A program made the position numbers and the translations under genes. From the NCBI RefSeq assembly GCF_000415985.1, contig NZ_KE356561.1, forward strand, positions 1,069,729-1,133,728: a stretch of 64,000 nucleotides of DNA, given 5' to 3'. This DNA comes from Haloquadratum walsbyi J07HQW2 (lineage in GTDB: Archaea; Halobacteriota; Halobacteria; Halobacteriales; Haloferacaceae). The notes under the pieces are model-generated. The model had not been told where the DNA came from. It saw nothing but the letters and a program-made list of their open reading frames with translations, and did no database searches. The number at the start of each line of letters is the position of its first letter. The first letter of the stretch is position 1. Below are positions 5,816 through 20,865 of the stretch, piece after piece.

Positions 5816-6850
5816 ATGAGTCAAGAACCTGCAACTGAAGGAGATCTTCGAAATACTGGTATGTCACTCAAACACGACCGAGAGTGGGATTACGAACTTG
5901 ATCGGATTGTTGAGGAAATTGCGGAGCGTGATGCAGACCGCGTTGGATTGCAATTCCCTGAAGGACTCAAGCGACGTGGTCCAGCAGTCGCAGATGATCT
6001 TCGGGAACTGTGTGGCGATGATGTGACCTTTATGCTCTCTGGTCAGCCATGTTATGGTGCCTGTGATCTTGATACATATCTGATGCGTCGGACGGATGTA
6101 TTCGTGCATTTCGGACACTCACCAATGAAAGAGTCAGATAAGATCATATATGTGCCATTATTCTCGAATGTTGATCCATTCCCGATTCTTGAAGAGGCGG
6201 TTGACGAGCTACCCAAAGACGATGTGGGTCTCGTAACGACTGCTCAACATATGAATCAGTTTGATTCGATGGTTACGTGGCTTGAAACGCGTGGATTCGA
6301 GGTTCACACTCGAAAGGGTGATGACAGGTTAACACATGAGGGGCAAGTGCTAGGATGCAATTACGCATCAGCAGATATTGACGCTGATCAGGTGCTCTAT
6401 GTCGGTGGTGGAAAGTTCCATCCACTCGGGCTTGCAATGGAACATCCGGACAAACGGGTTTTGATCGCAGATCCAGTCAACAATGTCGTGACCGTTGCTG
6501 ACACCGAGAAGTTCATGAAACAACGCTATGCGGCTGTGCACAAGGCAATGAGTGCTGATAAGTGGGGAGTGATTTTCTGCACGAAGATTGGACAAGGCAG
6601 AATGGATACTGCTGAGTCTATTCTTGCGGACAATGATAATACATATCTCATCACAATGGATGAGGTGACACCAGACCGGCTTCGAAACTTCGATATGGAT
6701 GCATTTGTCAATACGGGTTGTCCGCGAATCACTACCGATGATGGACCACAATTCCACAAACCAATGCTTACGCCGGGCGAGTATCGAATCGCTGTCGGTG
6801 ATAAGCCATTAGACTCACTCTCTTTCGATACATTCCATGGCACATGGTGA
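5816..6850 (+). CDS. dph2: Diphthamide biosynthesis enzyme Dph2 (2-(3-amino-3-carboxypropyl)histidine synthase)
   Basis: Transfers the 3-amino-3-carboxypropyl group of S-adenosylmethionine to a histidine of elongation factor 2, the first step of diphthamide formation. This is a radical enzyme that holds a 4Fe-4S cluster with three cysteines, one per domain. Candidates are visible in GQPCYGACDLD (Cys79 or Cys83), VLGCNYASADI and NTGCPRI. RVGLQFPEGLKRRG near residue 42 is characteristic. Length (344 residues) matches archaeal Dph2. The ATG at 5816 was chosen over 5789, whose extra nine residues lack family resemblance. It is a single gene; the substrate-related mat gene is 5 kb away. Confidence 0.93.
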   Translation: MSQEPATEGDLRNTGMSLKHDREWDYELDRIVEEIAERDADRVGLQFPEGLKRRGPAVADDLRELCGDDVTFMLSGQPCYGACDLDTYLMRRTDVFVHFGHSPMKESDKIIYVPLFSNVDPFPILEEAVDELPKDDVGLVTTAQHMNQFDSMVTWLETRGFEVHTRKGDDRLTHEGQVLGCNYASADIDADQVLYVGGGKFHPLGLAMEHPDKRVLIADPVNNVVTVADTEKFMKQRYAAVHKAMSADKWGVIFCTKIGQGRMDTAESILADNDNTYLITMDEVTPDRLRNFDMDAFVNTGCPRITTDDGPQFHKPMLTPGEYRIAVGDKPLDSLSFDTFHGTW

Positions 6851-7095: not shown

Positions 7096-7935
7096 ATGGT
7101 TGATATTGAAAGCGATTGGGGGGCATGGCTCCCGCGTTCTGTCGAAGCAGCATCACCTGACACGGTGGCTGTCTGGTATCTTGGATGTAATGGGTTTTTC
7201 CTAAAGGGTAATCGGGGGACGACAATTGCAATTGATCCATATGTTGGGATTGGCGACCCTCCACGAACGGTTCGGATGATTCCAATACCATTCGATCCTG
7301 ATGATATAACGACTATGGATGCAGTGTTAGCGACTCATGAGCATACTGATCATACTCATGGTCCATCACAGGGTCCAATTCTTGAATCAACAGATGCGCA
7401 CTTCTATGGGCCTGATGATTCAATCCAGGTCGCACGCAAGACCGAGGCGTGGCAGAGTGAATACGATATCGATGACACACAATTTCGGATTATATCAGAG
7501 GGTGAAACGATTGACATTGGAGAGTTTACAGTTCATGTTGAGTACGCTCACGATCCCGACTCGACGCACCCAGTTTCATACGTGATTGAGCATGAAACAG
7601 GGACGTTTTTTCATGGTGGTGACACAAAACCGCATGAGGATTTTGACGCACTCGGAAATGAGTATGATATTGACCTTGGGGTACTTGCATTTGGCTCAAT
7701 TGGCAATATCGATGATAAGACGACCGGTGAGCCTGTCCAGACAAAATGGTACGCAACAGAGAATGAGATTATCCGGGCAGCAGCAGACCTCAATATTGAT
7801 CGGCTCCTCCCAAGTCATTGGGACATGTGGAAAGGATTGACCGCGGATCCAACGGCGCTACATACGCATGCACGGAGCTACATATCTCCTCGAGTTCTTG
7901 AAATTGCTGAAATTGGCGACCGTATTAACTTATAA
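7096..7935 (+). CDS. Metallo-beta-lactamase-fold hydrolase (UlaG/YtnP-like)
   Basis: A 279-residue cytoplasmic hydrolase of the metallo-beta-lactamase fold. The metal-binding motif HEHTDH sits at residues 81-86, with later ligands in VEYAHDPDSTHPVSYV, FFHGGDTKPH and LLPSHWDMW. The closing tryptophan-rich LPSHWDMWKG motif resembles UlaG-type L-ascorbate-6-phosphate lactonases, but substrate cannot be assigned. An ATG five bases upstream is out of frame, so the 7096 start is used. It is followed at once by the accessory region, so it marks the left edge of the variable segment. Confidence 0.85.
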   Translation: MVDIESDWGAWLPRSVEAASPDTVAVWYLGCNGFFLKGNRGTTIAIDPYVGIGDPPRTVRMIPIPFDPDDITTMDAVLATHEHTDHTHGPSQGPILESTDAHFYGPDDSIQVARKTEAWQSEYDIDDTQFRIISEGETIDIGEFTVHVEYAHDPDSTHPVSYVIEHETGTFFHGGDTKPHEDFDALGNEYDIDLGVLAFGSIGNIDDKTTGEPVQTKWYATENEIIRAAADLNIDRLLPSHWDMWKGLTADPTALHTHARSYISPRVLEIAEIGDRINL

Positions 7936-8144
7936 TTGCACGTAATTATACTAATGCGTTTACTCCCGGTAATAAATGTTAAACATGATTTATTTTTGAA
8001 GGACCTGTGTCGTACGGTACATCACTGGTATGTGCCCTGACCGATATCGCTGGAGTTAGGATTATAAAATAAATCTTGAAAGCACAATCTGTTTAATATC
8101 TGATTACTGAGAATCGAGGAGAAAGCCTCGTGTGCTTTCGCGCG

Positions 8145-8738
<594 letters not shown>

Positions 8739-9010
8739 CGCTCCGGGCGAGTCGAACCGTGTACCTCGCTGGTTGAATAGAATAGAATAGCCAGTCATGT
8801 GTAATGCTCGCTGTCTGCGAGGAGAGAGGATCTTTTGACAGAGTTATACGCGCTGGAACGCACACCGTTGGTCACAATTCGGTGGCAACCTTCGAGGGGT
8901 CACGCAAACGCGAACGCGTATCTGAATCCCGAGCCCGAGGAACCGCGCAACCTACAGATCCACTTCGTGGAATCCCGCGTCGCGTCTTTAGGCGCGGGAG
9001 GATGTCAACT
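8739..9010 (+). mobile_element. Right end of the IS1341-type element, with terminal hairpin (candidate omega-RNA region)
   Basis: The 270 bases after the tnpB stop hold no convincing gene and end in a GC-rich hairpin. Arms CCCGCG (8974-8979) and CGCGGG (8993-8998) are followed by GAGGATGTCAA, which I recall as a common right-end sequence of haloarchaeal IS1341-type elements. In active elements this part encodes the 3' end of the omega-RNA scaffold, with the guide lying just outside the element from about 9010. A short GAATA triplet repeat lies at about 8775-8788. The extent of the RNA is inferred from position, not from a structure calculation. Confidence 0.5.
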
Positions 9011-9893
9011 GCGAAACAAGCGTTCGGTTGGGAAGTAATCTAGGTCATTTTTCATCCACTTATTTCACCGAAATCACACATCACAACCCTACTAAACATA
9101 CTGTAGTCTCAGTTTCCAAACCGTCGTATTGATATAGCGCTATATGGTTTATACGTCGAAAGACGGACACAGACTAAGAATCATTAATGTAATATGGATT
9201 ATCTATTATTATACACTATCGGGAAGTATCGGCGTATATGACTCGGTGATACTCTGATAGTTCACATTGTCCACACTGAGTAGAATTCAAATAACTAGAA
9301 TCATTACATATAGGAGCTCTCTGCATTTATCGGTCAAACTCGTCTATTACTGCATCGATAATCGTTTTAGTTTATAGGTATTCTCGTCACATTTTCACCT
9401 ACCGTTGCAATAGAGAGAAAACCCGCACAGGGATTGAAACAGCGAATACTGTTGTGTAGCGATTGAAACAGCATACCCTCGCCTTTGAGTCGTGATCAGC
9501 ATCGGTTTGATTCGACACACACAAGTTCTCCCTACAAGCTAGCAGAGAGGAGGCCGAATCATGTCTGAGACTACGCATATAGCACGGGTGAGCGTGCCTC
9601 TATTGACGACTTATCTGATAAGGCGATTACGGCTCACACCACATTACCGCCGTAAATATTCAGTTGAAAGCTGGTGTGCTGTCGATAGATTTAGTTGGGT
9701 AGTTGAATACTCTTAGGTGGTCGTCTTGTGACCTATGCGACCATTGATGACACCCACTGACTCACCGACATCCCCCTTCGTCCGGGGAACATAGGCACTC
9801 CACTTTCCCCCAGTGTTAATTCCCGATGACCATGTGGTTCACCGAAAATAAAATGTGTAATATGTGCATAAACGAGAGTGACCGGTGAGTCTG
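9011..9893. other. Intergenic, relic-like sequence; one weak 51-codon frame
   Basis: No supported gene. A short plus-strand frame at 9561-9716 reads YRRKYSVES near its end, which resembles the YRRRW-type motif of DDE transposases, but it is too short to call. Two copies of GATTGAAACAGC occur 29 bases apart (9432 and 9461); the first is preceded by CCGCACAGG, giving a CRISPR-repeat-like 3' end, but there is no array. Confidence 0.35.
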
Positions 9894-10931
9894 ATGGCAA
9901 AAAAAGAGTCAATATCACGCTCGATCCAGAGCTCCACTCTGAAGCCAGAGAGCTGGGACTGAATATCTCAGGTGTCAGCGAGAGGGCTTTGAGACAGTAC
10001 GTTCAAGCTCTCACCAGCGATGAAGAGGTTGTTTTGTCCTTGTCTGCGTCAGAATCACCCGTCGATGACGACCGCGAGCAGTAGGCGTCAGAGCCCTCAC
10101 AGGAGTATGCTGATGCCTCCGTTGATGAGATCATTGCTGATATGAGCAGTACGGCAAAACAGTTCTCAACCGAAGTCAATCGACGCTCGATCAGCATACC
10201 CGATACGTTGGTCGACTGCTTCGTCATGCTGAGAAACCACCTGCAGCTATCAGGAAATGGATATCATCGCGTATATCGAATCAGAGCAGCCAATCAGCGA
10301 TGCTAAACACAAGAATATCCTCTCTGCCGCCCGGGTTTTGTTCCGTGAGTTCGTCGATACCGAGGCTGCCAGCAGCTTCAAGATCCCAAATATCAGCCCG
10401 AATCCAACGTCTGTCCCGACCAAAGATGAGCTACAGACGTTCTACGACGCTATCGATACCCGCCGATACCAGGCGGTCTTCCTGATGTATGCGACCTCAG
10501 GATTACGATCTGCTGAGTTGGTGCAGCTCACAATAGACTATATCACTGAGGAGGATCGGATGCTGATCCCCGACAAGGAATCTGAGAGCAAGCAAACGTG
10601 GGTGTCCTTCTACAACGAGGAGGCAGAAGCGGCGTTTGCGGCATACAACCACAACCGAAAACATGGTGATGATCGATTGTTCCAGGTGAGCAAACCCGCT
10701 GTACTCAAGATGTTCCAGAAGATCTCCGAGGAGTCGGGTGTGAAGATCACCCCGCAGGTACTCCGCCGGTGGTTCGCTTCTGAGATGGCCTCACTGGGCG
10801 TCGATTCAAGCTACATCGATGCCTTTGCTGGTCGAGTTCCTGAATCTGTCTTGGAGAAACACTACCTCGATTACTCTCCTCGTAAGTTGAAACAGATCTA
10901 CGATGATGCTGGGCTCACCGTTCTTGAGTGA
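9894..10931 (+). pseudogene. Broken copy of a CcdA-like / tyrosine recombinase fusion
   Basis: A decayed paralogue of the intact gene at 12044. The N-terminal part (KKRVNITLDPELHSEAREL) is a CcdA-like ribbon-helix-helix segment. It should start at ATG 9894 (MAKK...), but the seven-A run at 9899-9905 puts that ATG out of frame by one base; in the present frame only a GTG at 9878 is available. An in-frame TAG follows at 10082-10084, and a further frame change lies near 10240. The catalytic half is intact from 10257 (224 residues): ATSGLRSAEL holds the first arginine, TPQVLRRWF the second, and EKHYLDYSP the probable tyrosine nucleophile. The stop is five bases from the convergent hicA relic. Confidence 0.82.
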
Positions 10932-10934
10932 CTG

Positions 10935-11202
10935 TCACCGGTTAGTGTCAATCCATTGCTTGAATCTGTTGTAGTCTTTGGCACCGGCTTGGTCAGCAAT
11001 ATTTCTCAGCGTACCTTCGCTGACTTCGTCGTGGAGTGGGACTGGAACCGTTCGGGCGTCAGCATCGTGGTCCTCCGGGGGTTCCCATCGAAGAATTGCG
11101 TGGTCTCCACGGGTACGTTTCCACTCGTAGATTCCACTCGTAGATTCCACTATTCACCATCACTTTCACGATACCCTTCCCGGAAAACGGGGCATACGAC
11201 AT
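10935..11202 (-). pseudogene. hicA: HicA toxin gene disrupted by a 13-bp tandem duplication
   Basis: HicA is a small double-stranded-RNA-binding-fold mRNA interferase neutralised by HicB. The frame from ATG 11202 reads MSYAPFSGKGIVKVMVNSGI, then YEW, and leaves frame. The next frame resumes IYEWKRTRGDHAILRWEPP, holding the GDH catalytic-histidine motif, then TVPVPLHDEVSEGTLRNI to the end. The break coincides exactly with a direct duplication of 13 bases (11125-11137 and 11138-11150). Removing one copy restores a full HicA of about 84 residues. The antitoxin gene hicB lies just upstream on the same strand and is intact. Confidence 0.87.
11125..11150. repeat. 13-bp perfect tandem duplication inside hicA
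   Basis: TCGTAGATTCCAC occurs twice in direct contact (plus strand). The length is not a multiple of three, so it shifts the hicA frame. The unit is preceded by a further CCAC, consistent with replication slippage. Confidence 0.95.
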
Positions 11203-11217
11203 GGCTACTGGAGGGGA

Positions 11218-11472
11218 TTATTCGAAAATCTCTGAGTCTTCAACCGATCCAGAGCTATTCTGTTCTGGATCAATCCCCATGTCTCGAAGTTCCGAATTGC
11301 TTGGAGACTCGCCTTCTCCGTAATATCCTTCGAGTGCTTCATCGAGGTTTTCGAGGGCCTTCTGTCGAGTTTTTCCTTGGCTCGTGACACCTGTCTCTTC
11401 ATCGCTTGCTACCCACCACTCGCCGTCGTCATTGAGCGTGATGGATTGATTGGTGACAGAGTCTGCGCTCAT
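11218..11472 (-). CDS. hicB: HicB-family antitoxin
   Basis: An 84-residue antitoxin with the typical HicB core: N-terminal strand ITLNDDGEWWVASDEETGVTS, then GKTRQKALENLDEALEGYYG, the helix that packs on the partner. Homologues neutralise HicA by binding it and often repress their own operon. The C-terminal tail is short and acidic, without a clear DNA-binding domain. I chose ATG 11472; the ATG at 11490 would add six residues. The order is hicB then hicA, with 15 bases between. Because hicA is broken, this antitoxin is probably an orphan. Confidence 0.85.
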   Translation of the reverse strand: MSADSVTNQSITLNDDGEWWVASDEETGVTSQGKTRQKALENLDEALEGYYGEGESPSNSELRDMGIDPEQNSSGSVEDSEIFE

Positions 11473-11537
11473 TATTCTTGACTGCGTCACAGATAAAATA
11501 ACACTTTGGTTGTCAACTATCCATGTTCGGAGTTTAG

Positions 11538-11843
11538 TTAATTTCCGTAGCGTTTGTGAGCTTCATCGGTTGGAAGTATCTCACGAACCCGAGCTTCGTT
11601 TTATTTGTCATTTATTGTGTAAAATGCAGTATAGCCCCGTCCGATATGGAGTCGATACATTTCTCGTCCATCTACAGGTAGCTTCTCTCGGTCGCCACCT
11701 CCTGATCCGGGACGAGGATACGGATCATCCGCTAGTTGTTTGAGATTATCTCGGACAATCCGATTGGTCTTATCATCGGCGTCAGCTAGAAATTCGCGTG
11801 GCTGATCCCCAACAAGACACTGAAACCCACGGTTATACCTCAT
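11538..11843 (-). pseudogene. RelE/ParE-family toxin, frameshifted near the 3' end
   Basis: The main frame reads EFLADADDKTNRIVRDNLKQL, then REKLPVDGREMYRLHIGRGYTAFYTI and stops at NDK (11601). The conserved end of the family, here EARVREILPTDEAHKRYGN, continues at once in another frame to TAA at 11538-11540. A single-base indel near 11600 would restore a full-length toxin of about 100 residues. RelE/ParE toxins cleave mRNA on the ribosome or poison gyrase; the subgroup is unclear. The N-terminal part (MRYNRGFQCLVGDQP) is also unlike the usual strand and may be altered. It overlaps the end of the antitoxin relic. Confidence 0.75.
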
Positions 11844-12016
11844 CGAGCGGCACGAAATCGTCGTCATCAGTTCGGTCGAGTAACTCTCGTTTCCATTTGC
11901 TTGGTCTCGATCAGTTCTTTCACAACATCATCCCACGTCTCTCCCGCTCCTTTGAGTTCGTCCAGATCTTCGAAGGTCCCCTCACGGAGAGGAATCCGCT
12001 TTGTGGCCTTTGACAT
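11833..12016 (-). pseudogene. RelB-like antitoxin partner, frameshifted
   Basis: Starting at ATG 12016, the frame reads MSKATKRIPLREGTFEDLDE, then LKGAGETWDDVVKELIE, a short ribbon-helix-helix-like antitoxin of a kind common in haloarchaea. It ends early at TGA 11867-11869 with the unrelated tail TKQMETRVTRPN. In another frame the expected acidic tail SKWKRELLDRTDDDDFVPLD continues to TAA at 11833-11835, overlapping the toxin start. One indel near 11900 explains both. The early stop could alternatively be a natural shorter antitoxin, but the coherent downstream tail argues against that. Confidence 0.65.
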
Positions 12017-12043
12017 ATTTACAAGATTACACACTCACCTCCG

Positions 12044-13069
12044 ATGAACAAGAAGCGAACCAACATCTCGCTCCAACCGAACGTATACAAAAAAGCGAAA
12101 CAACTTGGAATTAATATCTCCCAGACAGCTGAAGAAGCCCTCCAAATCCGGATTGAAAGTGCTCACAGTGGTCCGATAGCTGACGGCACACCAGCACCAC
12201 TCGGGATTACGCTCGCCCACATGGACGCAGCGCGGATTATCAACACCACTTCTGACGACCTTGACCCCGAGCAATTCCTCGAAGAGTTCGAGCAGGCCTG
12301 CGAAGTTGACTGGGATCTAGCCGAGCGAACGACGAGAGATCGAGCTCGGTATGCGCGAAAACTCGTCGACTTCCTTGATGACCACCCGTTGACGGCCTCT
12401 GAACAGGATCTTCGCAACTTCCTCCAGCAATACGAGGATCAGAATTGCGTCAAGACAGTCCGTATCATCTACGGGCGGTTCTACGATCCCGACCTCGCTG
12501 AGAACTTCAAAATCAAGAACCCGCCTCCGACGCCGACAAAAGCACCCAGCAAAGAGGAATTACAAGCTGTCTACCATGAGCTCGATGCTGGAGAAGAACA
12601 GGCCGCCCTCTTGTTGATGGCTACGTCTGGTCTCCGACGCAGCGAGATTCTTGATCTTACGCCGAAGAATTTCGACCTAGAAAACCGGGGAGTGTACCCA
12701 CAGAAAGCGGACGGACAAACGACCAAACAGCAGTGGATGTCGTTTTACAGCCCGGATGCGGAACGGAAACTTCACGACGAGTACGACTTCGACCAGATGG
12801 ACTCGGATGAGCCACTGTTTACCCGTCACAAGTCGACCTTCACGCATAATTTCGCCGATGCAAGTGAGGAGGCCGATACAATGCGGATCACCCCGCAGGT
12901 GCTTCGGGTCTGGTTCTGTCAAGAGATGAGCAGTCTCGGTGTCGCTGATCGGCATATCGATGCGTTCTGTGGCCGAACCTCCCGATCCGTGCTTGCAAAT
13001 CACTACTCGGATTACACGCCAGAGAATCTCCAGAAAATCTACGAGGATGCTGGGATCTCGGTGTTATGA
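12044..13069 (+). CDS. Intact CcdA-like domain fused to a tyrosine recombinase
   Basis: A 341-residue protein. Residues 1-36 (MNKKRTNISLQPNVYKKAKQ) match CcdA-type ribbon-helix-helix antitoxin segments. Residues about 55-150 form a SAM-like core-binding domain. Residues 165-341 are the catalytic domain: Arg198 in ATSGLRRSEI, Lys228 as the likely hairpin lysine, Arg288 in TPQVLRVWF where most recombinases have HxLR, and Tyr321 in ANHYSDYTP as probable nucleophile. The box II histidine replaced by threonine recalls archaeal virus and plasmid integrases. It is divergent from the RelBE-like relic (27 bases between starts). Its broken paralogue lies 2 kb upstream on the same strand. It could integrate an element or invert DNA; no att site was found. 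Confidence 0.85.
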   Translation: MNKKRTNISLQPNVYKKAKQLGINISQTAEEALQIRIESAHSGPIADGTPAPLGITLAHMDAARIINTTSDDLDPEQFLEEFEQACEVDWDLAERTTRDRARYARKLVDFLDDHPLTASEQDLRNFLQQYEDQNCVKTVRIIYGRFYDPDLAENFKIKNPPPTPTKAPSKEELQAVYHELDAGEEQAALLLMATSGLRRSEILDLTPKNFDLENRGVYPQKADGQTTKQQWMSFYSPDAERKLHDEYDFDQMDSDEPLFTRHKSTFTHNFADASEEADTMRITPQVLRVWFCQEMSSLGVADRHIDAFCGRTSRSVLANHYSDYTPENLQKIYEDAGISVL

Positions 13070-13141
13070 CAAAATGTGCATTTATAACAGATCAGTAAAT
13101 TTGCACAGAAATTACAAAATGTTATCATGTCCTTCTATTGA

Positions 13142-13318
13142 ATGATGTCTAAAACTCTGAAGACACGCGATCATCATGGGGCAGATTCTTTGGATATCAT
13201 AATCCCTGTTGACGCTGTTCGAGAATATGATATCAACCAAGGCGACGTTTTTGAACTCGAAGCTGAGGAACAAGACGGTGATGTTATTCTCCGATATCGA
13301 CGAGTGTATGAAAGCTAA
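13142..13318 (+). CDS. Small AbrB/SpoVT-like DNA-binding protein
   Basis: A 58-residue protein (two adjacent ATGs, 13142 and 13145). The central part SLDIIIPVDAVREYDINQGD followed by VFELEAEEQDGDVILRYRRV matches the swapped-hairpin AbrB pattern (hydrophobic strand, IP-A, GD-F-hydrophobic). Such proteins are transition-state regulators or VapB/MazE-type antitoxins. No toxin gene sits next to it, so a regulator role is as likely as an orphan antitoxin. It lies 72 bases after the intact recombinase on the same strand. Confidence 0.65.
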   Translation: MMSKTLKTRDHHGADSLDIIIPVDAVREYDINQGDVFELEAEEQDGDVILRYRRVYES

Positions 13319-13417
13319 TTTTACCATCAGTCAGTGGCTGACTGTAACTCTGGAACGATCTAATTACAATTGTCACCGGGATTGCTCTGGCAATAGATCA
13401 GGAGAACATTGAGCCCG

Positions 13418-13801
13418 ATGAACAACGATGGACCACAAGGGTATGAGCGAGAGTTCACTACAGTCATCAACCGCCGTTCTCAAATTCGAATCGGTTTATC
13501 GACCGAGAAGGCCGATGTGATGCGGTTTTTTGTCCAACTAGAATACTGGCGTGATGGTGGCTGGATGGAAGTAGTCAGATTTGCCCACAACCCTAACACG
13601 GAGTTCGGTCACGATATTACGGAAGATGGACTCCACATGGATATCTACCGAGATGGAGAGAAATACCATGTAAGAGAGGACTTCCCAGCGGTGAAATTAA
13701 ACTGCGCCCCCACGCTATTGTATGGTATATATCCGAGAGCACGCGGATCGCACACTCAGGAGATTCAAGAATGGCACAACGTGAACGCGAACGACCGATG
13801 A
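13418..13801 (+). CDS. Haloarchaeal protein of unknown function (DUF7718-like)
   Basis: A 127-residue soluble protein; the start is taken at ATG 13418 (a TTG nine bases upstream is possible). The sequence is beta-rich: FTTVINRRSQIRIGLSTEKA, then VMRFFVQLEYWRDGGWMEVVRF, DGLHMDIYRDGEK. A pattern of this type is common as a small gene in haloarchaeal mobile or virus-derived regions. No catalytic motif is visible. It overlaps the next gene by 31 bases, suggesting translational coupling. Family assignment is from memory of the pattern, so the name is tentative. Confidence 0.6.
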   Translation: MNNDGPQGYEREFTTVINRRSQIRIGLSTEKADVMRFFVQLEYWRDGGWMEVVRFAHNPNTEFGHDITEDGLHMDIYRDGEKYHVREDFPAVKLNCAPTLLYGIYPRARGSHTQEIQEWHNVNANDR

Positions 13802-13947
13802 CAGACGAAGAGATCGACGATATAGCCGCGGCTGCCGATGAGCTTGGAGAACGGGTTGTCAACGCTCTCGAAGCGGAGACAGGGCGCGACGCTGAGGAGT
13901 TTGATGTCGATCCAGACGATTACGAGTTCCCGGGCTCAGATTCCTGA
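13771..13947 (+). CDS. Small acidic protein of unknown function
   Basis: A 58-residue frame from ATG 13771 to TGA 13945-13947, overlapping the preceding gene. It reads MAQRERERPMTDEEIDDIAA, then ADELGERVVNALEAETG, ending in an Asp/Glu-rich tail (EEFDVDPDDYEFP). It is a predicted helix with a basic N-terminus. Genes of this form often follow DUF7718-like genes in haloarchaea, which supports a paired role. No known domain is recognised; it resembles acidic partner proteins in shape only. Confidence 0.6.
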   Translation: MAQRERERPMTDEEIDDIAAAADELGERVVNALEAETGRDAEEFDVDPDDYEFPGSDS

Positions 13948-14145
13948 CTACGTTGTTCATTGTCGCGGCGGTTGCAGACTCTTTATTCCAAAGTCGCTCT
14001 TCGGTGATTGTCGGTGATGCTTAGTATCAAAACTGAGATTATGCGGATTCTATCTTTCCGAAATTAGGGGAACTCGGAAATTGAGCCTCCTATATCGGTA
14101 GTTTTTCTGCTCTAACCCTTGCTCAGAGCATAGATTTATGCTTCA

Positions 14146-14173
14146 ATTTCCGGTAATTAGAATTACCGGAAAT
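14146..14173. promoter_or_regulatory. Perfect 13-bp inverted repeat overlapping the integrase start codon
   Basis: ATTTCCGGTAATT (14146-14158), a two-base AG loop, then the exact reverse complement (14161-14173). The start codon of the following recombinase gene is 14172-14174, inside the right arm. Degenerate half-sites (TTTCCGAAATT and CTCGGAAATTG) lie about 75-110 bases upstream. This could be an operator for a dimeric repressor, a recombinase core site, or an mRNA hairpin hiding the start codon. Confidence 0.7.
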
Positions 14174-14784
14174 GAATTTGCAAGAGCATGAGATTAAAGA
14201 CGGGTTCAAACTGTGGTTATCTGAGCAAGAAGTTACCTCCCTGCTCGATCAAGCGATACATCCGAAGGCAAGAATTGCATTTGGGTTAGCTGCTCGATCA
14301 GGCTTAAGAAGCCATGAAATTACTGAGGTATATCCTGAGAATATTGTTGATACTGATGCAGGTTCTATGATCAGGGTTGAGCATGGAAAGGGTGACAAAT
14401 TTCGAGAGACTCCGATACCTCCTGAGCTAAAGACAACAATAGAGACTGCTGTTGAGTTTCGAGAACAGGGAGTAAATGAGCCTGTGATTCTCAACACAAA
14501 GGGTAATTCTTGCTCTACGCGCACGTTAAGGAATTGGTTAACTGAGACAAGAGAGAAGCTAGCTGATCGAGGGCAAGACAAGTACTGGAATGAAATGAGG
14601 TTAATCTGCATGACCTAAGACGCACATGGGCTACGTCATTAGCTTCGAAAGATGTTGATGCTCTCGTTTGCTGCGATTGGGGTGGGGGGGTTGGGAAGAC
14701 CTAGAAGTGTTCCTTAGCGCATACAGGGGCACATATTCGCCTGAGGCTCAGAGGCGTGAGAGAAATAAGGTTGAGTGGTTATGA
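14172..14784 (+). pseudogene. Tyrosine recombinase (XerC/D-like integrase) relic with two frameshifts
   Basis: The first frame (14172-14618) shows AARSGLRSHEI with the first catalytic arginine, VEHGKGDKFRETPIP with the hairpin lysine, and NTKGNSCSTRTLRNWL. It ends at ICMT, while the other frame continues HDLRRTWATSLASKDV, holding the box II HxLR. A second break falls in a seven-G run at 14684-14690. After it GWEDLEVFLSAYRGTYSPEA carries the probable tyrosine nucleophile and runs to TGA 14782-14784. Composition is visibly AT-richer than the recombinases at 9.9 and 12 kb, so the source differs. The N-terminal core-binding domain is missing. Confidence 0.8.
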
Positions 14785-14889
14785 GCCTAGCAGCTGATGA
14801 TGAGATTTCGGATTAACACGAAACACAAAAATAAGCTGCTGGTGGATTTTCTCGAGGTCAGTTCTTAGAATAACCGACGAGGAATGATT

Positions 14890-15387
14890 TTACTCTATGA
14901 GTTCCTCTTGATCGAGTTCTAGCTCCAGCTCCTGCTCCTGATCAGCTTGAGTTTGAGTCTCTGTGAGATTGAGATTCTCAGGAGGAGCCTCTAGATATGT
15001 GCGTGTCGCAATATCATAGACTAGGATATTGTGATTAGCGAATTGTCACCAAAAATACAGAACATGACAACAGACGTCATCAAATTCATATCCTTTGCAT
15101 TGGCAATCGCTGAGAATCTGCGATTCATGCTCCTGAGTCTCAACATAAAAAGTAACTCTGTAATCTCCTCCGATTGAGCCATTTGCGCGAGGGAGTGAGA
15201 TTTGCCATTGCCCCGGATTAACAGAGCCGATAATTGAGGTATATCTCTGTGCTCTCCGCCATGAGCTTGTATCCTCAAATCTTTCAGGGAGAGTTAGTTG
15301 ATCAGTTTGAGAGAGCAGATCAATGAGTAGTTGATTATGCGCGTGTTCGTTTTCGGGTATTTCGCGGTGTATTCGATTGATTGACAT
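14890..15387 (-). pseudogene. SWIM zinc-finger protein gene with an in-frame TGA
   Basis: From ATG 15387 (or 15429) the protein reads through a helical region (NQLLIDLLSQTDQLTLPERF), then VTFYVETQEHESQI and DCQCKGYEFDDVCCHVLYFW, which fits the SWIM zinc-finger pattern CxCx(n)CxH. SWIM domains bind DNA or proteins. TGA stops it at 15046-15048, six residues after the finger. The same frame stays open for another 51 codons to TAA at 14890-14892, with a strongly acidic Gln/Glu/Leu-rich end (ADQEQELELELDQEELIE), so the stop looks premature. The upstream half of the protein would still be made. It may derive from a virus or plasmid, as its neighbours do. Confidence 0.65.
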
Positions 15388-16635
15388 TTGTATTAGTTTT
15401 CTAAGTATTGCATACTGCATTGTGCACATTGCATCAAAAAAGAGAGCCTCTAGGACTATCTCTGTCGATATAAGAGAGGTTACTTGTGTAGCTACAGTGG
15501 ATTGACACCGTATGTGACCTGTTTATGTGTGTGTATACTTTATATTACTACTAATCTACTGTAGTTACACAAATAACTCAATATTACTGATCACGATATT
15601 CCCTGGTGCGACTATAATGATTCTACGGCATACGAACGTCATGAAAAATCTATTTAATATAAGTAGTCCCCAATATATGATGTGCCTAGATCACACGCTG
15701 GATGAAAAATAATTGTATAGAGAAATAGGACAACACACTCTATCCTTCGAGTTACTGAGATGAACTACTCGGACGCTTACTGAACGTGCATTGAGTGAAA
15801 CCGTGGAGTCGAGACCAATGACTCTGGGACACCTAGCCTGTAGAAGGGGTAATGTCAACCCTTACTCAGGGGTTAAGCTCAATAGAACCATGATCTAGTG
15901 TATTAAGCACCGGTATCAATTTTCGCTTTCGATCATACCAGACATATCAGTGCAGCAGCGCACCGGGTCAGGTCTGAGCGAGTAAGTTCACCTTTGAGTG
16001 GGACATAAACATGACAACGGAGAGAGGTGGTAAATATACAACCGAAAGGTTGCTCACGCTACACACAGTGACTTTGATCAGGTATCTTGCTCTCGCCTCC
16101 ATGGTGGAGTTAAACTATCTTATTATTATTCTCTCAGGTGTGCATTGGGGTGTGTTTCCTGCTGTTCAGGTATGATTGATATTGACCTCAAGACTATCCA
16201 TTTAATGGGCTTGGATCCGCCATCATAGAAGAGATTAAAACTAGATATTGGATCGTCATGCTGTCATCGCGCTTTGATCTCAGTCGCCGGCTCCGTATAA
16301 CTAATTAACTCGGGTTATGTTTTGCATTTTTTATATTAATATAAAATTTGTATAGTATTAGACGGCAAATCGATCATAAATTACTTTTCGCAACTGCATA
16401 TACTAAACTTGATGATGCAGAAATGCCGTATCCCGATTAATAGATAGGCTACATCTACAGATATCAAGGCGAGTGCCTCAGGGCTTGACTCCGAGAGGGT
16501 GAAGCCGACATGAAATGACGCTACATGTCTATGTCTTCTCAAAAAAATACAGTCAGAAAACCTTACAGATAGGTTAAAGATCTTCATCCAATGCTGGCTG
16601 CGACAGTCTAGAAATGTGACCCCTCTCACCATCCG
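15388..16635. other. AT-rich stretch without a supported gene
   Basis: Many stops in all frames and no domain resemblance. Short open frames (for example 16381-16632 minus) have no coherent start or neighbour. It is likely degraded mobile DNA. Confidence 0.5.
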
Positions 16636-16820
16636 CTACTGGCGGTGCGGCAGGGACAAGCGGTTTCACTGGGAGCTGGTGTAGACCCCGACTCCTCACA
16701 GAAAACGAGAAGGTCGGGGTCGGGAGGAATTGACTGAAATTCGCCTGCGGGTGCGGGTGCGGTGTTGATCTAAAACTGTGAAGCTTCGGCTTGGGACTTG
16801 TCCCCAGGGTACTTCACAAA
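16636..16820 (+). other. GC-rich patch with nested hairpins (candidate structured RNA or transposon right end)
   Basis: Inside AT-rich DNA lies a GC-rich block with a perfect 9-bp hairpin (GACCCCGAC 16684-16692, GTCGGGGTC 16713-16721). About 55 bases later is a compact cluster. TGTGAAG (16777-16783) pairs with CTTCACA (16812-16818). Between them AAGC-TTCG-GCTT is a small stem with a UUCG-type loop (its AAG overlaps the outer arm), and GGGAC-TTG-TCCC-type arms (GGGAC 16793-16797, GTCCC 16800-16804) form a second stem. The layout recalls a right end of an IS200/IS605 element without its gene. Folding is read by eye. Confidence 0.45.
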
Positions 16821-17788
16821 TCATAGCATGCATTCTTTTTATAACGATTATAACATTACACTCATCGGAAAGCTTGATACCGTCGTTGTATTTTATTAAT
16901 TCATATCCCTACGACTGTCGAGTTCAGTCAACTCAGAATATTCGTGAATCCGATAATGATAGCCGTCTTTCTTGACGAGTGTAAACTGATATTTGTCTAT
17001 TCACTATGCTACCGTTCATGTAAGTGCAAAACGCGAGTGACTGCATTTCTGGAAAATATATCCGAGAACAGCCATCTCAATATGGGTAACGATTGTTTCA
17101 AAGTAGCAATTTTGGAACGAGAGAGTTATTGAATTGAATTATGAGCGCTAGCGCTTAGATTCATCTGTCTGAGTTCCTATTTTGAATGCTATCTAACTTG
17201 AGATGGTCGGTACCTAGCCAGTGACACTCAGGAACGTGCATATCTTAAAATTGGAACCATGCGATATTTGATATTTAAACATATCTGAAACGAGAACATA
17301 AGAATAATACTGTTTTTGATGTCGTATTTGACGATGACACGAAGCCGTATGTGGTCTCAAGAAGCATTTCTCCGATACAGTCTCTGATTCTACCATAACA
17401 CATATTATACTAGAGCCGGGTCGCTATCGAGCGCCTCTATGGGCAAATAGCACGGTGAACAGGTCAATTTGTAGTACGCTTCATCGAAATATTGTTCCTC
17501 GCCAGAGCATTCTTTCTGTAATCAATTCAGTTGAGTAATATTATCTCTATATGAATGTGAGATGAAATACTATATCAGACATATATATCGTATGTCGCTA
17601 TATCAAATTGTTAGATGGCAAGGTGAAACTACACTGGGTCTAGGAGGGCTGTGATGCGTAGTCTCAGCCGAATCAGTGAACAGAAACTGCTTCAGATCAC
17701 CCTTCGTTCGCGTCTTCGTATCGTACCAACGGTCAGACCGTCGTTTTCTTGAGATTCTTGATAGCGCTGACCCAGACTGAACATTCTA
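16821..17788. other. AT-rich stretch without a supported gene
   Basis: No coherent protein and no RNA gene recognised. Composition becomes more GC-rich from about 17630, where the transposase relic region begins. Confidence 0.45.
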
Positions 17789-19300
17789 CTACCAGATTGC
17801 TGTTTCCTTCTTCAGCAGCGTCAGCGTATTATCGTTCGTCACAATCGGCGAGTATTCGTGATCACCGGTCAACTTGATCTGCACAAACAAATCGACTGCC
17901 CGCCAAATCAAGCACAGCAGACACGCGAACGCGAAGTAGAAAAACCGGGAGTCAAAATTCCTTGGACGTCGTCGTAACGATGAACCGCTTGATTGACTTG
18001 TAGCCATACTCAGTGAGAAGGCTACTCCCTCGGTTCGTCATGCACATTGAGTGCTGCTGATGGTCGTTATGCTCTGAGTTCTCTTTGCGTCGATAGATCA
18101 GCGTCGTTTCGTGTACTTGTTCTCGCCGAAATGGAGTTTCCCGTCGGGTTCATACAGGTCCAGATCTCGTCGGAGCAACCGCTTTGCCTGAGCTTTCTTG
18201 CTGGTCTGCATCCGCTTGAGCACGACGCAGGAAAGACCGGGCTGATTGAGCATCTTTAGGACGTGCTGACTATCGAACTCTCGATCCATCAGCATGTTAT
18301 CGATGTGAATCATCTCCTCAACCGAATCCAGGAAGTCCTCAACGATTTCTACGCGGGACTCACCCCTCTGAACTGGTCGCACGTCCAGCACGATTGGGAC
18401 GACACTTCCTACTAATTGGACGGTGACCCACTGATATGTGTACTCGTCGATCTTCTCCTTCGTCTCGGTGATCTCGTTCCTGTGGCTGGTTCTGTCGCCG
18501 GTAACGGGATCAGCTTCGGTGATGTCGATGGCGACGATCCCGGCTCGAAAGGACTACTCTGTCTTGGGGACTCCTGAACGAAGTCTCTGGATAACCTGAC
18601 GATACATCTCTCGGACCTGTTCGATCGGAAAGTCACAGATGTGGTCGCAATGAGCATGCCCGAGTGGCGTCCGCTCCCGCGTTGACCCGTAGGCGAAACT
18701 GCGAGCGCCCTCGTTGGCAGCCAGCCACTCGCGAAGTCCGAGAGACGTCCGTAAGTCCTAGTAGGCGTTCTCGTGGATCTCACAGCCCTCCTTTTGATCT
18801 AGCGAGAATGCCAGGAAGACAATCCGACCGACGTGCTCCGTAATCGGTGCTGCCTCGTCGAGAACAGCGTGGTCATCTGGGTCTGATTCGTCCGCTTTGT
18901 CACCGTGAGACGGACGCTACCGATCTAGGTTCCACGGAACACTAACACGCGCGTTCTGGGCTTTGACCAGAATGGTCCGCGCAGTGGTCTCGACTGTACT
19001 GCGAAGCTCGGCGGTGAACCGCCTGAGCCACAGCGTCGACTGGCCCGGTACACGCTTCAAGTTCGATTGCTCGCAGAGCGTTGGACGACGCTTGAGATAC
19101 TCTATTAGTGCTATTTCGTGCTCCCGCCCGTGGAGTTCTTTCAGCACGAACACACGAAAGAGGGTGTCCATCTCGTATCGAGTCGACCCCGCGTAGTGGT
19201 CGTGTGCTTCGAATTTGAAGTACACTAGCGGGAGCGAGTAGACGAAGTTCTCGACCGACTCGTGGCGGTTGTGTTTGAACCAGGTCTGTGAACTGTCCGA
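17789..19300 (-). pseudogene. DDE transposase relic, many frameshifts and an internal deletion
   Basis: Fragments in different frames on the reverse strand join in order. The N-terminal part has YFKFEAHDHYAGSTRYEMDT and LFRVFVLKELHGREHEIALI. The middle has IVAIDITEADPVTGDRT (first catalytic aspartate region) and then LMDREFDSQHVLKMLNQPGL (second). The end has FDSRFFYFAFACLLCLIWRA. Such proteins are haloarchaeal transposases of about 550 residues with a DDE active site. The segment expected to carry the catalytic glutamate (a YRWEIE-type motif) would fall in the deleted part between about 18098 and 18007. At least five frame changes are needed to read it. The insertion-sequence family and terminal repeats were not identified. 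Confidence 0.75.
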
Positions 19301-19692
19301 ACATTTGACTCCAGCCCATCGAACGAGCTTCGCTCGTACAGCGGTGTTGCATCGTATGCTGACCAGTCAGCGTGGGGGCGGTGGGCGATCTGTCAGAAGA
19401 CACTTTGGCGAGACTTACACGTCAGTGCCACCACGAGACGCTGAAGACGACTCGTTCAACAACGCCGCTCTCTCAAGGAGCCATATTGATCGATTCTCCC
19501 TCGGTATTCGCAATAGTTGGTTCTGTATCACGTGGTTCGTCCTCAAGGACTTTTTTCAGGATAGCGTAGAAGCGTCACTCGTCACCGTAGTCGTAGAGTC
19601 CTGAACACGCGAACGGACCTGGACGTCGCGATCTTCGTCAACGACGTGGGCGAAGTGAACGTCGACTCCAGGATCGATATCGATTTCGGATC
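19301..19692. other. Relic-like sequence between the transposase and integrase remnants
   Basis: No supported gene. A reverse-strand frame reads IDIDPGVDVHFAHVVDEDRD, which looks protein-like but lacks a start and is probably part of a broken gene. Confidence 0.35.
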
Positions 19693-20497
19693 TTAGACGC
19701 TGTCCAGATGGGGAGTGTTCTCATACTTGAGCATCTTCTCGGGCTTGTCAGAGATGGTGTCGTGGATCTGCTGGAGGACCTCCTCTGCAGCGAGCAGATT
19801 GTGCTTCTTAACCAACGCCCGCTTTTCGTCAATGAGGCCATAGAACTTCCAGGGGTAGTCCTGTCGGCATTGGTCATCATATAGGGCGACCTCGCCGACG
19901 ATACCGGCGTCGATGAGTTTCTGGATGTGCTTGTAGACAGTCGCGTCGCTCACGCCGGGGTTGAGCGCCTCCAAGTTCGTACATTGAGGGCAGCTGCTCG
20001 GATGCTAGAGGATGTTATTGATGAGTGCGAACCGCGTCTGCTGGGTCATGAAGTGGACGAGTTCCCGGGTCACACCGAGGGGGGGAAGCTCACTCTCTGA
20101 TAAAATCGATACTACGTCAAGCGCCTGTTCAGGACGCTCCCGACGTTTGGTAACGTTTTGTTCGCGATAGGACTCATAACTGGTCTCAATAGACTCGTGT
20201 CGGAGCAGCTCTTGTGGGAGTTCGGCGTCCTGTGCGTAGAGGTTGCTGCCGAGCCCACACCGGTCGCCGTGGGGTTTGAGATACTCTCCGTCAGTGTCGA
20301 GGTCCGGTGCGTCACAGAGCTGTTTCATCAGCGACCGTGCCCCGTTCTTCGAGAGTGCTGGTGGCGCAATCCTGTGTTCTCGGGGGATTTCAATCGACGG
20401 CGACTCGTCGAGAGCTGTCTCGATCTCCTTAGTGTCCCACTCCTGAGCATCAAGCCCTCCTCGTTGGCGTTCGCGAGCGACGCGTGATGCCGCATGA
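19693..20497 (-). pseudogene. Tyrosine recombinase C-terminal part joined to a winged-helix domain, disrupted
   Basis: The reverse-strand frame opens without a start near 20497, so the 5' part is lost. It reads EWDTKEIETALDE, then LKPHGDRCGLGSNLYAQDAE (HxxR box) and LRHESIETSYESYREQNVT (probable tyrosine nucleophile). A helix-turn-helix part follows: VHFMTQQTRFALINNIL, then VSDATVYKHIQKLIDAGIVG, a winged-helix pattern of the ArsR kind. TAG interrupts at 20005-20007. Right after it, the residues HPSSCPQCTNLEALNP make better sense (EQLPSMYEL) in the neighbouring frame, pointing to one lost and one gained G about 30 bases apart. The abrupt edge at 20497 suggests a deletion or insertion boundary. 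Confidence 0.75.
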
Positions 20498-20865
20498 GTA
20501 TCAATAATATGAAGTCATATATTAACGGTAAATCGGTTATAATGCGATTATCTAGCGGTCACTTGCCGATTAAGAGTTATCATAAGTGGTATGATGCTAC
20601 GTCGGCTAACCGAGTTTCTGAGCAGAGCCTAGAGGCTAGTTTATTTGAATTCATAGCTATTATTGATTATCTCAGATTTTACTGACAAGTCGTCAATCAA
20701 CTAATTAGCATTACTCTGTAGCAACCGACTCTGTTTGAATCCAACCGTTTTTGCTCAGCGCAATGTCGACCATCACGTCATTAATAAAAAATTGTAATCG
20801 TAAGATTGCTTCTCACGGGGGTATGATACTCAACTTCTTTGTGAACACCACTCAGAATAATCGAT
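20498..20865. other. AT-rich intergenic stretch, right edge of the accessory region
   Basis: No gene or RNA recognised. It ends with the promoter region of the Lrp-family gene at 20866. Confidence 0.45.

Follow-up and report, generated by a model that had tools for sequence, protein, structure and literature searches.

A tyrosine recombinase with a CcdA-like ribbon-helix-helix domain in Haloquadratum walsbyi and the association of its family with surface-protein genes

The 64,000 nucleotides of Haloquadratum walsbyi J07HQW2 analysed here (contig NZ_KE356561.1, positions 1,069,729 to 1,133,728; hereafter the window) contain an uninterrupted gene, A, whose product joins a ribbon-helix-helix (RHH) segment to a tyrosine recombinase, and a broken relative, B, lies close by. 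This arrangement raises the question of what such an enzyme acts on and why it should carry an RHH part. On balance, we lean towards reading A as an RHH-armed recombinase belonging to a surface-protein module that is mobile and often decayed, and of which A and the broken B would be the remnant at this locus.

Domain architecture of the fusion protein

The A frame encodes 341 amino acids from an ATG start (Table 1). In a Pfam search, its residues 3–39 matched CcdA (PF07362; E 2e-9, with 38.1 bits exceeding the cut-off of 22.4), the best match of the N-terminal part, and residues 171–324 matched Phage_integrase (PF00589; E 2.3e-10, 41 bits against a cut-off of 27.1). Residues 167–323 also exceeded the cut-off of Phage_integr_3 (PF16795; 28.8 bits against 27), and a weak match to a SAM-like core-binding domain at residues 78–138 remained below threshold. 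These domains and the open frame bear out the preliminary description, which had recognized a CcdA-like segment fused to a complete tyrosine recombinase. The unusual TPQVLR box that it had pointed out is indeed present at residues 283–288 and gives Q285xxR288 instead of HxxR. Read against XerA, the other catalytic positions are in place as R198 (SGLR), K228, R288, R311 (GR) and Y321 (HY); compared to the canonical R...K...HxxR...H/W...Y, Q285 thus replaces the His and R311 the His/Trp. The QxxR box is common to A, B and the copies at loci L039 and L042. Judged by its sequence, A looks like an active tyrosine recombinase of the site-specific kind, in which the missing His could reduce catalysis. 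The full-length structure model was weak (mean pLDDT 52), and Foldseek returned XerA for this low-confidence model (E 1.5e-7); SSV1 integrase chains were among the PDB matches of A. PADLOC assigned neither A nor B nor the TumE pair described below to a defence system.

The N-terminal part had been proposed either to target the recombinase to DNA or to bind a toxin. CcdA antitoxins consist of a DNA-binding N-terminal half and another half that binds CcdB. The match of A covers only positions 1–37 of the 71 profile positions, which supports the DNA-binding half and leaves the toxin-binding half unsupported. XerA structures align with A only from about residue 53 (5hxy) or 75 (4a8e), and the low-confidence model of A places an N-terminal extended stretch and helices at residues 12–20 and 30–41 apart from the core-binding helices, so residues 1–45 appear to be separate from the core-binding domain rather than folded within it. 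Of the original proposal, a separate RHH part of DNA-binding type is therefore supported, whereas toxin binding is not. The model of the N-terminal part alone was likewise weak (mean pLDDT 63) and, like the full-length one, begins with an extended stretch and two helices; five fold matches to a short N-terminal model, with CopG, Arc and CdbA among them, included no significant one, and a PDB sequence search for RHH proteins resembling the segment gave no credible match. An alignment of five RHH copies revealed the common pattern KKR-N-I...P...A..LG.N.S...E.AL. The RHH could not be demonstrated in Halorubrum-type relics, the N-terminal parts of which are absent or unrecognisable.

Comparing A to known archaeal recombinases, both A and B resemble the SSV type in exceeding the PF16795 cut-off, and the SSV1 chains mentioned above point in the same direction. 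According to passages of a review of archaeal tyrosine recombinases (PMC8371274), SSV-type enzymes have a KxxR box and an att site inside their own integrase gene, and the pNOB8 type has a YxxR box. A differs from the former by its QxxR box and by the RHH fused in front; as to an att site within the gene, C-terminal-only relics and a chimaera at L044 exist, and no att pair was identified. With the pNOB8, XerA and SNJ2 recombinases A shares core-binding and catalytic domains that align with XerA (4a8e, 5hxy), but it carries QxxR rather than the YxxR of the pNOB8 type, and Arg at the usual His/Trp position. Two archaeal subfamilies are likewise non-canonical at the His of HxxR, as stated in passages of the same review, whose text mentions no CcdA-type domain and has neither the word CcdA nor the word ribbon.

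The module in the window and on a Halonotius contig

The broken paralogue with the same fusion, which had been described 2 kb away from A, was recovered as B: both its RHH domain (PF07362, E 8.7e-10) and its catalytic domain (PF16795, E 3.2e-13, 50.3 bits) matched, and the gene is damaged by an in-frame stop and frameshifts. Between the two copies lie genes of toxin-antitoxin type, which had been taken for two decayed modules. Decay probably applies to the HicA-like gene, given its tandem duplication and a match that begins late in the Pfam profile, whereas the other three frames are open. The HicB-like gene has a homologue with 83% nucleotide identity beside another recombinase copy of the same genome, at 87 kb, and the ParE-like homologue at that copy clears the Pfam cut-off. 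VapB-like homologues at the 87-kb locus and in Halonotius are located directly upstream of surface-glycoprotein genes. No surface gene was found near A in the window. A piece of another tyrosine recombinase (Pfam) occupies positions 14172–14618, just downstream of the module.

Table 1. Features of the module in the window (positions count from the first base of the window)
Feature	Position	Strand	Basis
Conserved region upstream of B, left end of homology	9611..9877	+	~90% identity to the Halonotius contig, counted jointly with B
B, broken paralogue with the same fusion	9878..10931	+	RHH and catalytic domain in different frames
HicA-like toxin gene, probably damaged	10935..11150	-	Pfam; 13-bp tandem duplication
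HicB-like (DUF7387) gene	11218..11490	-	Pfam
ParE-like toxin gene	11601..11867	-	Pfam match below cut-off
VapB-like antitoxin gene	11867..12034	-	Pfam match below cut-off
Junction, surface-glycoprotein gene missing compared to Halonotius	12036..12044		2-bp overlap of two homologies, no repeat
A, RHH, core-binding and tyrosine recombinase fusion, intact	12044..13069	+	Open frame, Pfam, selection, XerA alignment
RHH domain of A (residues 1–45)	12044..12178	+	Pfam CcdA match at residues 3–39
Small MazE-like gene, kept downstream of A in Halonotius	13142..13318	+	Pfam match below cut-off
DUF7718 gene, kept downstream of A in Halonotius	13409..13801	+	Pfam, homology
Small acidic ORF, conserved	13771..13947	+	Homology

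Two stretches of the window, 9611–10929 and 12039–14004, recur with 90–91% identity in two places on a Halonotius pteroides CECT 7525 contig of 19,929 bases (G058:C42, titled 'cov_514.617'), and this homology stops at 14004. The ends of the contig share an exact terminal repeat of 55 bp, which suggests a circle; the contig is thus probably circular, and it encodes a Cdc6-like gene. Both A and B are intact there, and its A protein is 97% identical to that of the window. Reading from B to A through the contig ends, we found TumE, an HVO_A0114-type regulator, TnpB, DUF7342, MazE-like and VapB-like genes and, with its stop overlapping the start of A, a gene whose 1248-aa surface protein carries a halo_sig_pep leader. 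This plasmid-like contig presents the fullest form of the module, comprising B, toxin-antitoxin genes, the surface-glycoprotein gene and A. At the 87-kb copy, a broken B is accompanied by TumE, HicB and ParE/VapB genes and by a 1335-aa surface protein, whereas the window has HicA, HicB, ParE and VapB genes without the surface gene. Compared to both of these loci, the gene lost from the window lay precisely where the upstream region of VapB now meets the start of A, and the minimal overlap at the junction is as expected from illegitimate recombination. Chromosomal copies retained the recombinase-surface part of the module and not the replication genes.

Several further observations concern these loci. 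On the Halonotius contig (L038), a perfect 18-bp palindrome, GTGTGTAT-AG-ATACACAC, is located at 5970–5987, some 20–40 bp upstream of A; it is a possible candidate for an RHH operator and has no counterpart in the window. An 81-bp block upstream of surface-gene starts (L038 2168–2248, also at L040, L044 and L045) is 84–89% conserved between Halonotius and Haloquadratum despite differing gene bodies. Positions 7925–20822 of the window represent a hypervariable slot in Haloquadratum, where the same flanking genes enclose different gene content across genomes (12.9 kb here, ~33.8 kb in G099 and 26 kb in G100). The surface gene at 87 kb was also considered as the main S-layer slot, a candidate that we rejected: the csg region of G099 maps elsewhere, to 2.63–2.66 Mb.

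Occurrence of the family and its linkage to surface-protein genes

In order to gauge how common the fusion is, which the preliminary description had left to a count in other haloarchaea, we searched genome sets of the taxonomic family, order and class, which overlap. Using A as query at a cut-off of 1e-5, matches came from 10/170 genomes at the family level and 11/392 at the order level, generic integrases included; a profile search gave 15/170 (family) and 15/391 (class) at 1e-10 and 5/392 (order) at 1e-18. The fusion is therefore rare and not universal. Only three intact fusions were present in this census, namely A of the window and A and B of Halonotius, and three more RHH-bearing copies are broken (window B and the copies at 87 kb and 1.397 Mb), so that the genome of the window holds four family members, three of them broken. 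The other family copies are mostly relics, many of them reduced to the C-terminal part. Weaker matches in G031, G041, G045 and G192 were discarded as ordinary integrases, which have HxxR-type boxes and start without an RHH, and the four loci fetched for them entered the control set of integrases. The family had no match among 50,697 phage records, 72,556 plasmid records and two IMG/VR scans, and a virus integrase was rejected on this basis. In published titles, the beginnings of abstracts and text passages, we found no description of an RHH-recombinase fusion or of its linkage to surface genes.

Genes with an S-layer-type leader or Tat-fimbria genes lie within 10 kb of 12 of the 15 family loci and of none of the 14 control integrase loci, which the same searches had turned up (Fisher p 1e-5). 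The 15 loci are not independent; collapsed by shared ancestry into six groups, the comparison becomes 5/6 against 0/14 (Fisher p 4e-4). The 12/15 result relies on home-made marker profiles, built mostly from the family loci themselves, and on a Tat-fimbria marker picked post hoc, so searches with curated models provide the fairer test, and these agree with the linkage. The three loci without a marker are the window, L120 and L121, the last of which nevertheless has a 2634-aa beta-helix surface protein adjoining its relic. In the genome of the window, the only two halo_sig_pep matches (84.2 kb and 1398.6 kb) are each at most 2.4 kb from a recombinase copy. Such matches adjoin a family locus in five of five cases in G100, three of six in G205, one of two in G099 and one of three in Halonotius, and in none in G111, G113, G146 and G216; the relics of these four genomes and of G133 are located inside Tat-fimbria (Taf) clusters. 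G099 is probably strain C23, since a halo_sig_pep match of it at 265 kb falls within the S-layer region published for that strain (passages of PMC3119063). Across four genomes, five of six recombinase loci, all except the window, lie within 3 kb of a marker, and such zones make up 0.9–1.6% of each genome. Toxin-antitoxin genes adjoin 7/15 family loci, all from Haloquadratum or Halonotius, and the surface-gene association is thus both wider and stronger than the toxin-antitoxin association.

In all eight loci outside Haloquadratum and Halonotius (L042, L043, L117, L118, L119, L121, L136 and L046), the recombinase relic and a gene for an exported protein are convergent, with the relic facing the 3' end of that gene at a distance of ~75–340 bp in seven of them and ~840 bp in L042. 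This layout is absent for window B, L038–L040, L044 and L045; in Haloquadratum and Halonotius, toxin-antitoxin genes come after B instead. Six of the eight convergent neighbours have a beta-helix domain, as seen by Pfam (L043, L046, L118, L121) or from blastp similarity to a beta-helix protein (L042, L119), and the beta-helix part is shared by proteins with unrelated N-terminal halves, which in Halorubrum are Tat-fimbrial and in G205 are Ig-like and carry an S-layer leader. L042 and L043 have a conserved relic, but the stretch separating it from the shared part of the neighbour differs (2.46 against 0.7 kb). In Haloquadratum walsbyi J07HQW1, an ORF at L044 14412–14861 runs in frame from the N-terminal part of a surface protein into the last 32 recombinase residues (SVLEEHYLDY...), and a near-identical surface ORF at 18308–18727 of the same locus has a different continuation.

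What the recombinase may do

If A is indeed the recombinase of a mobile surface-protein module, its recombinase domain would cut and rejoin DNA at a site near the module genes, and surface-protein modules could in this way be inserted, lost or exchanged. An RHH dimer would bind a palindrome, either close to the site of recombination or within the promoter of its own gene, which may provide targeting as well as autoregulation, and the toxin-antitoxin pairs probably stabilise the module. That A recombines DNA, and that the RHH targets or regulates it, is what we infer from its domains.

Several results speak against this reading: those of the searches that follow, the junction of illegitimate type, the missing surface gene near A, the His lost from the HxxR box, and the relics in which no RHH could be recognised. 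Att-like repeats around the two copies, a search for which had been suggested, were not found within 9.3–14.3 kb of the window, and the Halonotius contig likewise contains no att-like direct or inverted repeats; plasmid integration via att repeats was rejected as an explanation. Neither the window nor nine fetched loci contain a tRNA gene, which led us to discard a tRNA-targeting island. In a blastn self-comparison of 13 loci, no surface gene was bordered by an inverted pair on the side of the recombinase, so invertible DNA was dismissed as well. Inverted pairs elsewhere in these loci comprise 87 bp at 78% identity in L136, 62 and 37 bp within opposed Taf paralogues in L043, and a few short palindromes. 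Direct repeats occur at surface-gene leaders: in L046 (G205), two 122-bp copies with 99% identity (8606–8727 and 14575–14696), one at the leader of a gene for a 1667-aa surface protein, the other 6 kb away, enclose this gene together with the recombinase relic, and leader regions of G100 (J07HQW1) carry repeats of 316–660 bp with 92–97% identity. These repeats point to homologous recombination, which, acting on circles or duplications, would account for them no less well than any recombinase. In Halorubrum coriense (L042, L043), several exact or near-exact tandem duplications of 62–92 bp, some near runs of N, resemble assembly joins.

The strongest competitor, which we regard as a serious though less probable explanation, is that A is an ordinary plasmid or virus integrase or resolvase which, like B, integrates or resolves a small haloarchaeal plasmid, with the RHH as an arm-binding or regulatory domain comparable to the accessory proteins of other integrases, and that surface islands are merely hotspots collecting mobile DNA. 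The Halonotius contig, which looks circular and has a Cdc6-like gene, fits such an origin, as do the different sizes of the hypervariable slot in Haloquadratum. Other haloarchaeal integrases also come with separate small genes: at L138 (2356–3944) and L139 (2421–3985), a small DUF5805 gene with a weak, sub-threshold NikA-like RHH match overlaps or abuts the integrase start and is a possible unfused counterpart of the fusion, and IntSNJ2 has the helper proteins Orf2 and Orf3, according to passages of PMC8371274. An ordinary integrase is, however, at odds with the control loci, none of which lies near a surface marker, with the lack of tRNA genes, and with the chromosomal copies that kept the recombinase-surface part and not the replication genes. 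Since most family copies are relics, the linkage may also record hitchhiking in hypervariable islands.

A more far-reaching version of the preferred reading regards the RHH-tyrosine recombinases as dedicated haloarchaeal surface-variation enzymes, placed next to S-layer-type and Tat-fimbria adhesin genes or at their 3' ends, which would swap entire surface genes or else C-terminal beta-helix domains among modules, some of them on plasmids, as an archaeal counterpart of shufflons or antigenic variation, probably to escape viruses. The linkage suggests that the family serves surface variation, and we consider the full proposal tentative and rather unlikely as it stands. In shufflons, the gene of the recombinase Rci lies beside the 3' end of the surface-structure gene pilV. 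The convergent relics at surface-gene 3' ends resemble this layout, but inverted repeat sites or invertible segments were not found in the 13 self-compared loci. A haloarchaeal DNA inversion acting on structural and adhesion proteins is known from the virus phiCh1, judging by titles among the references of PMC8371274; the phiCh1 genes are, in contrast, viral.

A third possibility is that A is a dead-end relic, still open by chance and functionless in this genome. Three of the four family members of the genome are broken and A no longer has its surface gene alongside, which would suit this explanation. Comparison of A between the window and Halonotius, however, yielded a dN/dS of 0.052 (dS 0.30) over 341 codons, with 12.5 nonsynonymous of 69 changes (binomial p 1e-25 against neutrality). 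A is under strong purifying selection, and a relic appears improbable, even though this selection may have acted mainly before transfer. The catalytic part of B gave a dN/dS of 0.106 between the same two sources. The module is shared between these organisms and has been exchanged horizontally; between loci, dS is 0.06–0.09 for TumE/TumA compared to 0.25–0.41 for the adjoining B, which identifies the module as a mosaic.

That the RHH is a true CcdA-like toxin-binding part, with the recombinase as toxin sensor or addiction antitoxin, is very improbable: for all the CcdA match and the adjoining toxin-antitoxin genes, A shares with CcdA antitoxins the N-terminal RHH and lacks the toxin-binding half, its RHH is joined to a recombinase, Pfam detected no CcdB-type toxin among the scanned neighbours (HicA, HicB, ParE, VapB, MazE-like), and the toxins vary by locus (HicA, ParE, TumE, DUF5615) and have antitoxin-like genes of their own nearby.

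Haloquadratum strains differ sharply in their S-layer and other surface glycoproteins, and a 2011 genome comparison described deletion-coupled exchange of S-layer genes and argued that such changes help to evade viruses (passages of PMC3119063). A recombinase family linked to surface-protein genes would offer a testable enzyme behind this surface variation, and the RHH fusion would represent a new route to a tyrosine recombinase with a built-in second DNA-binding module.
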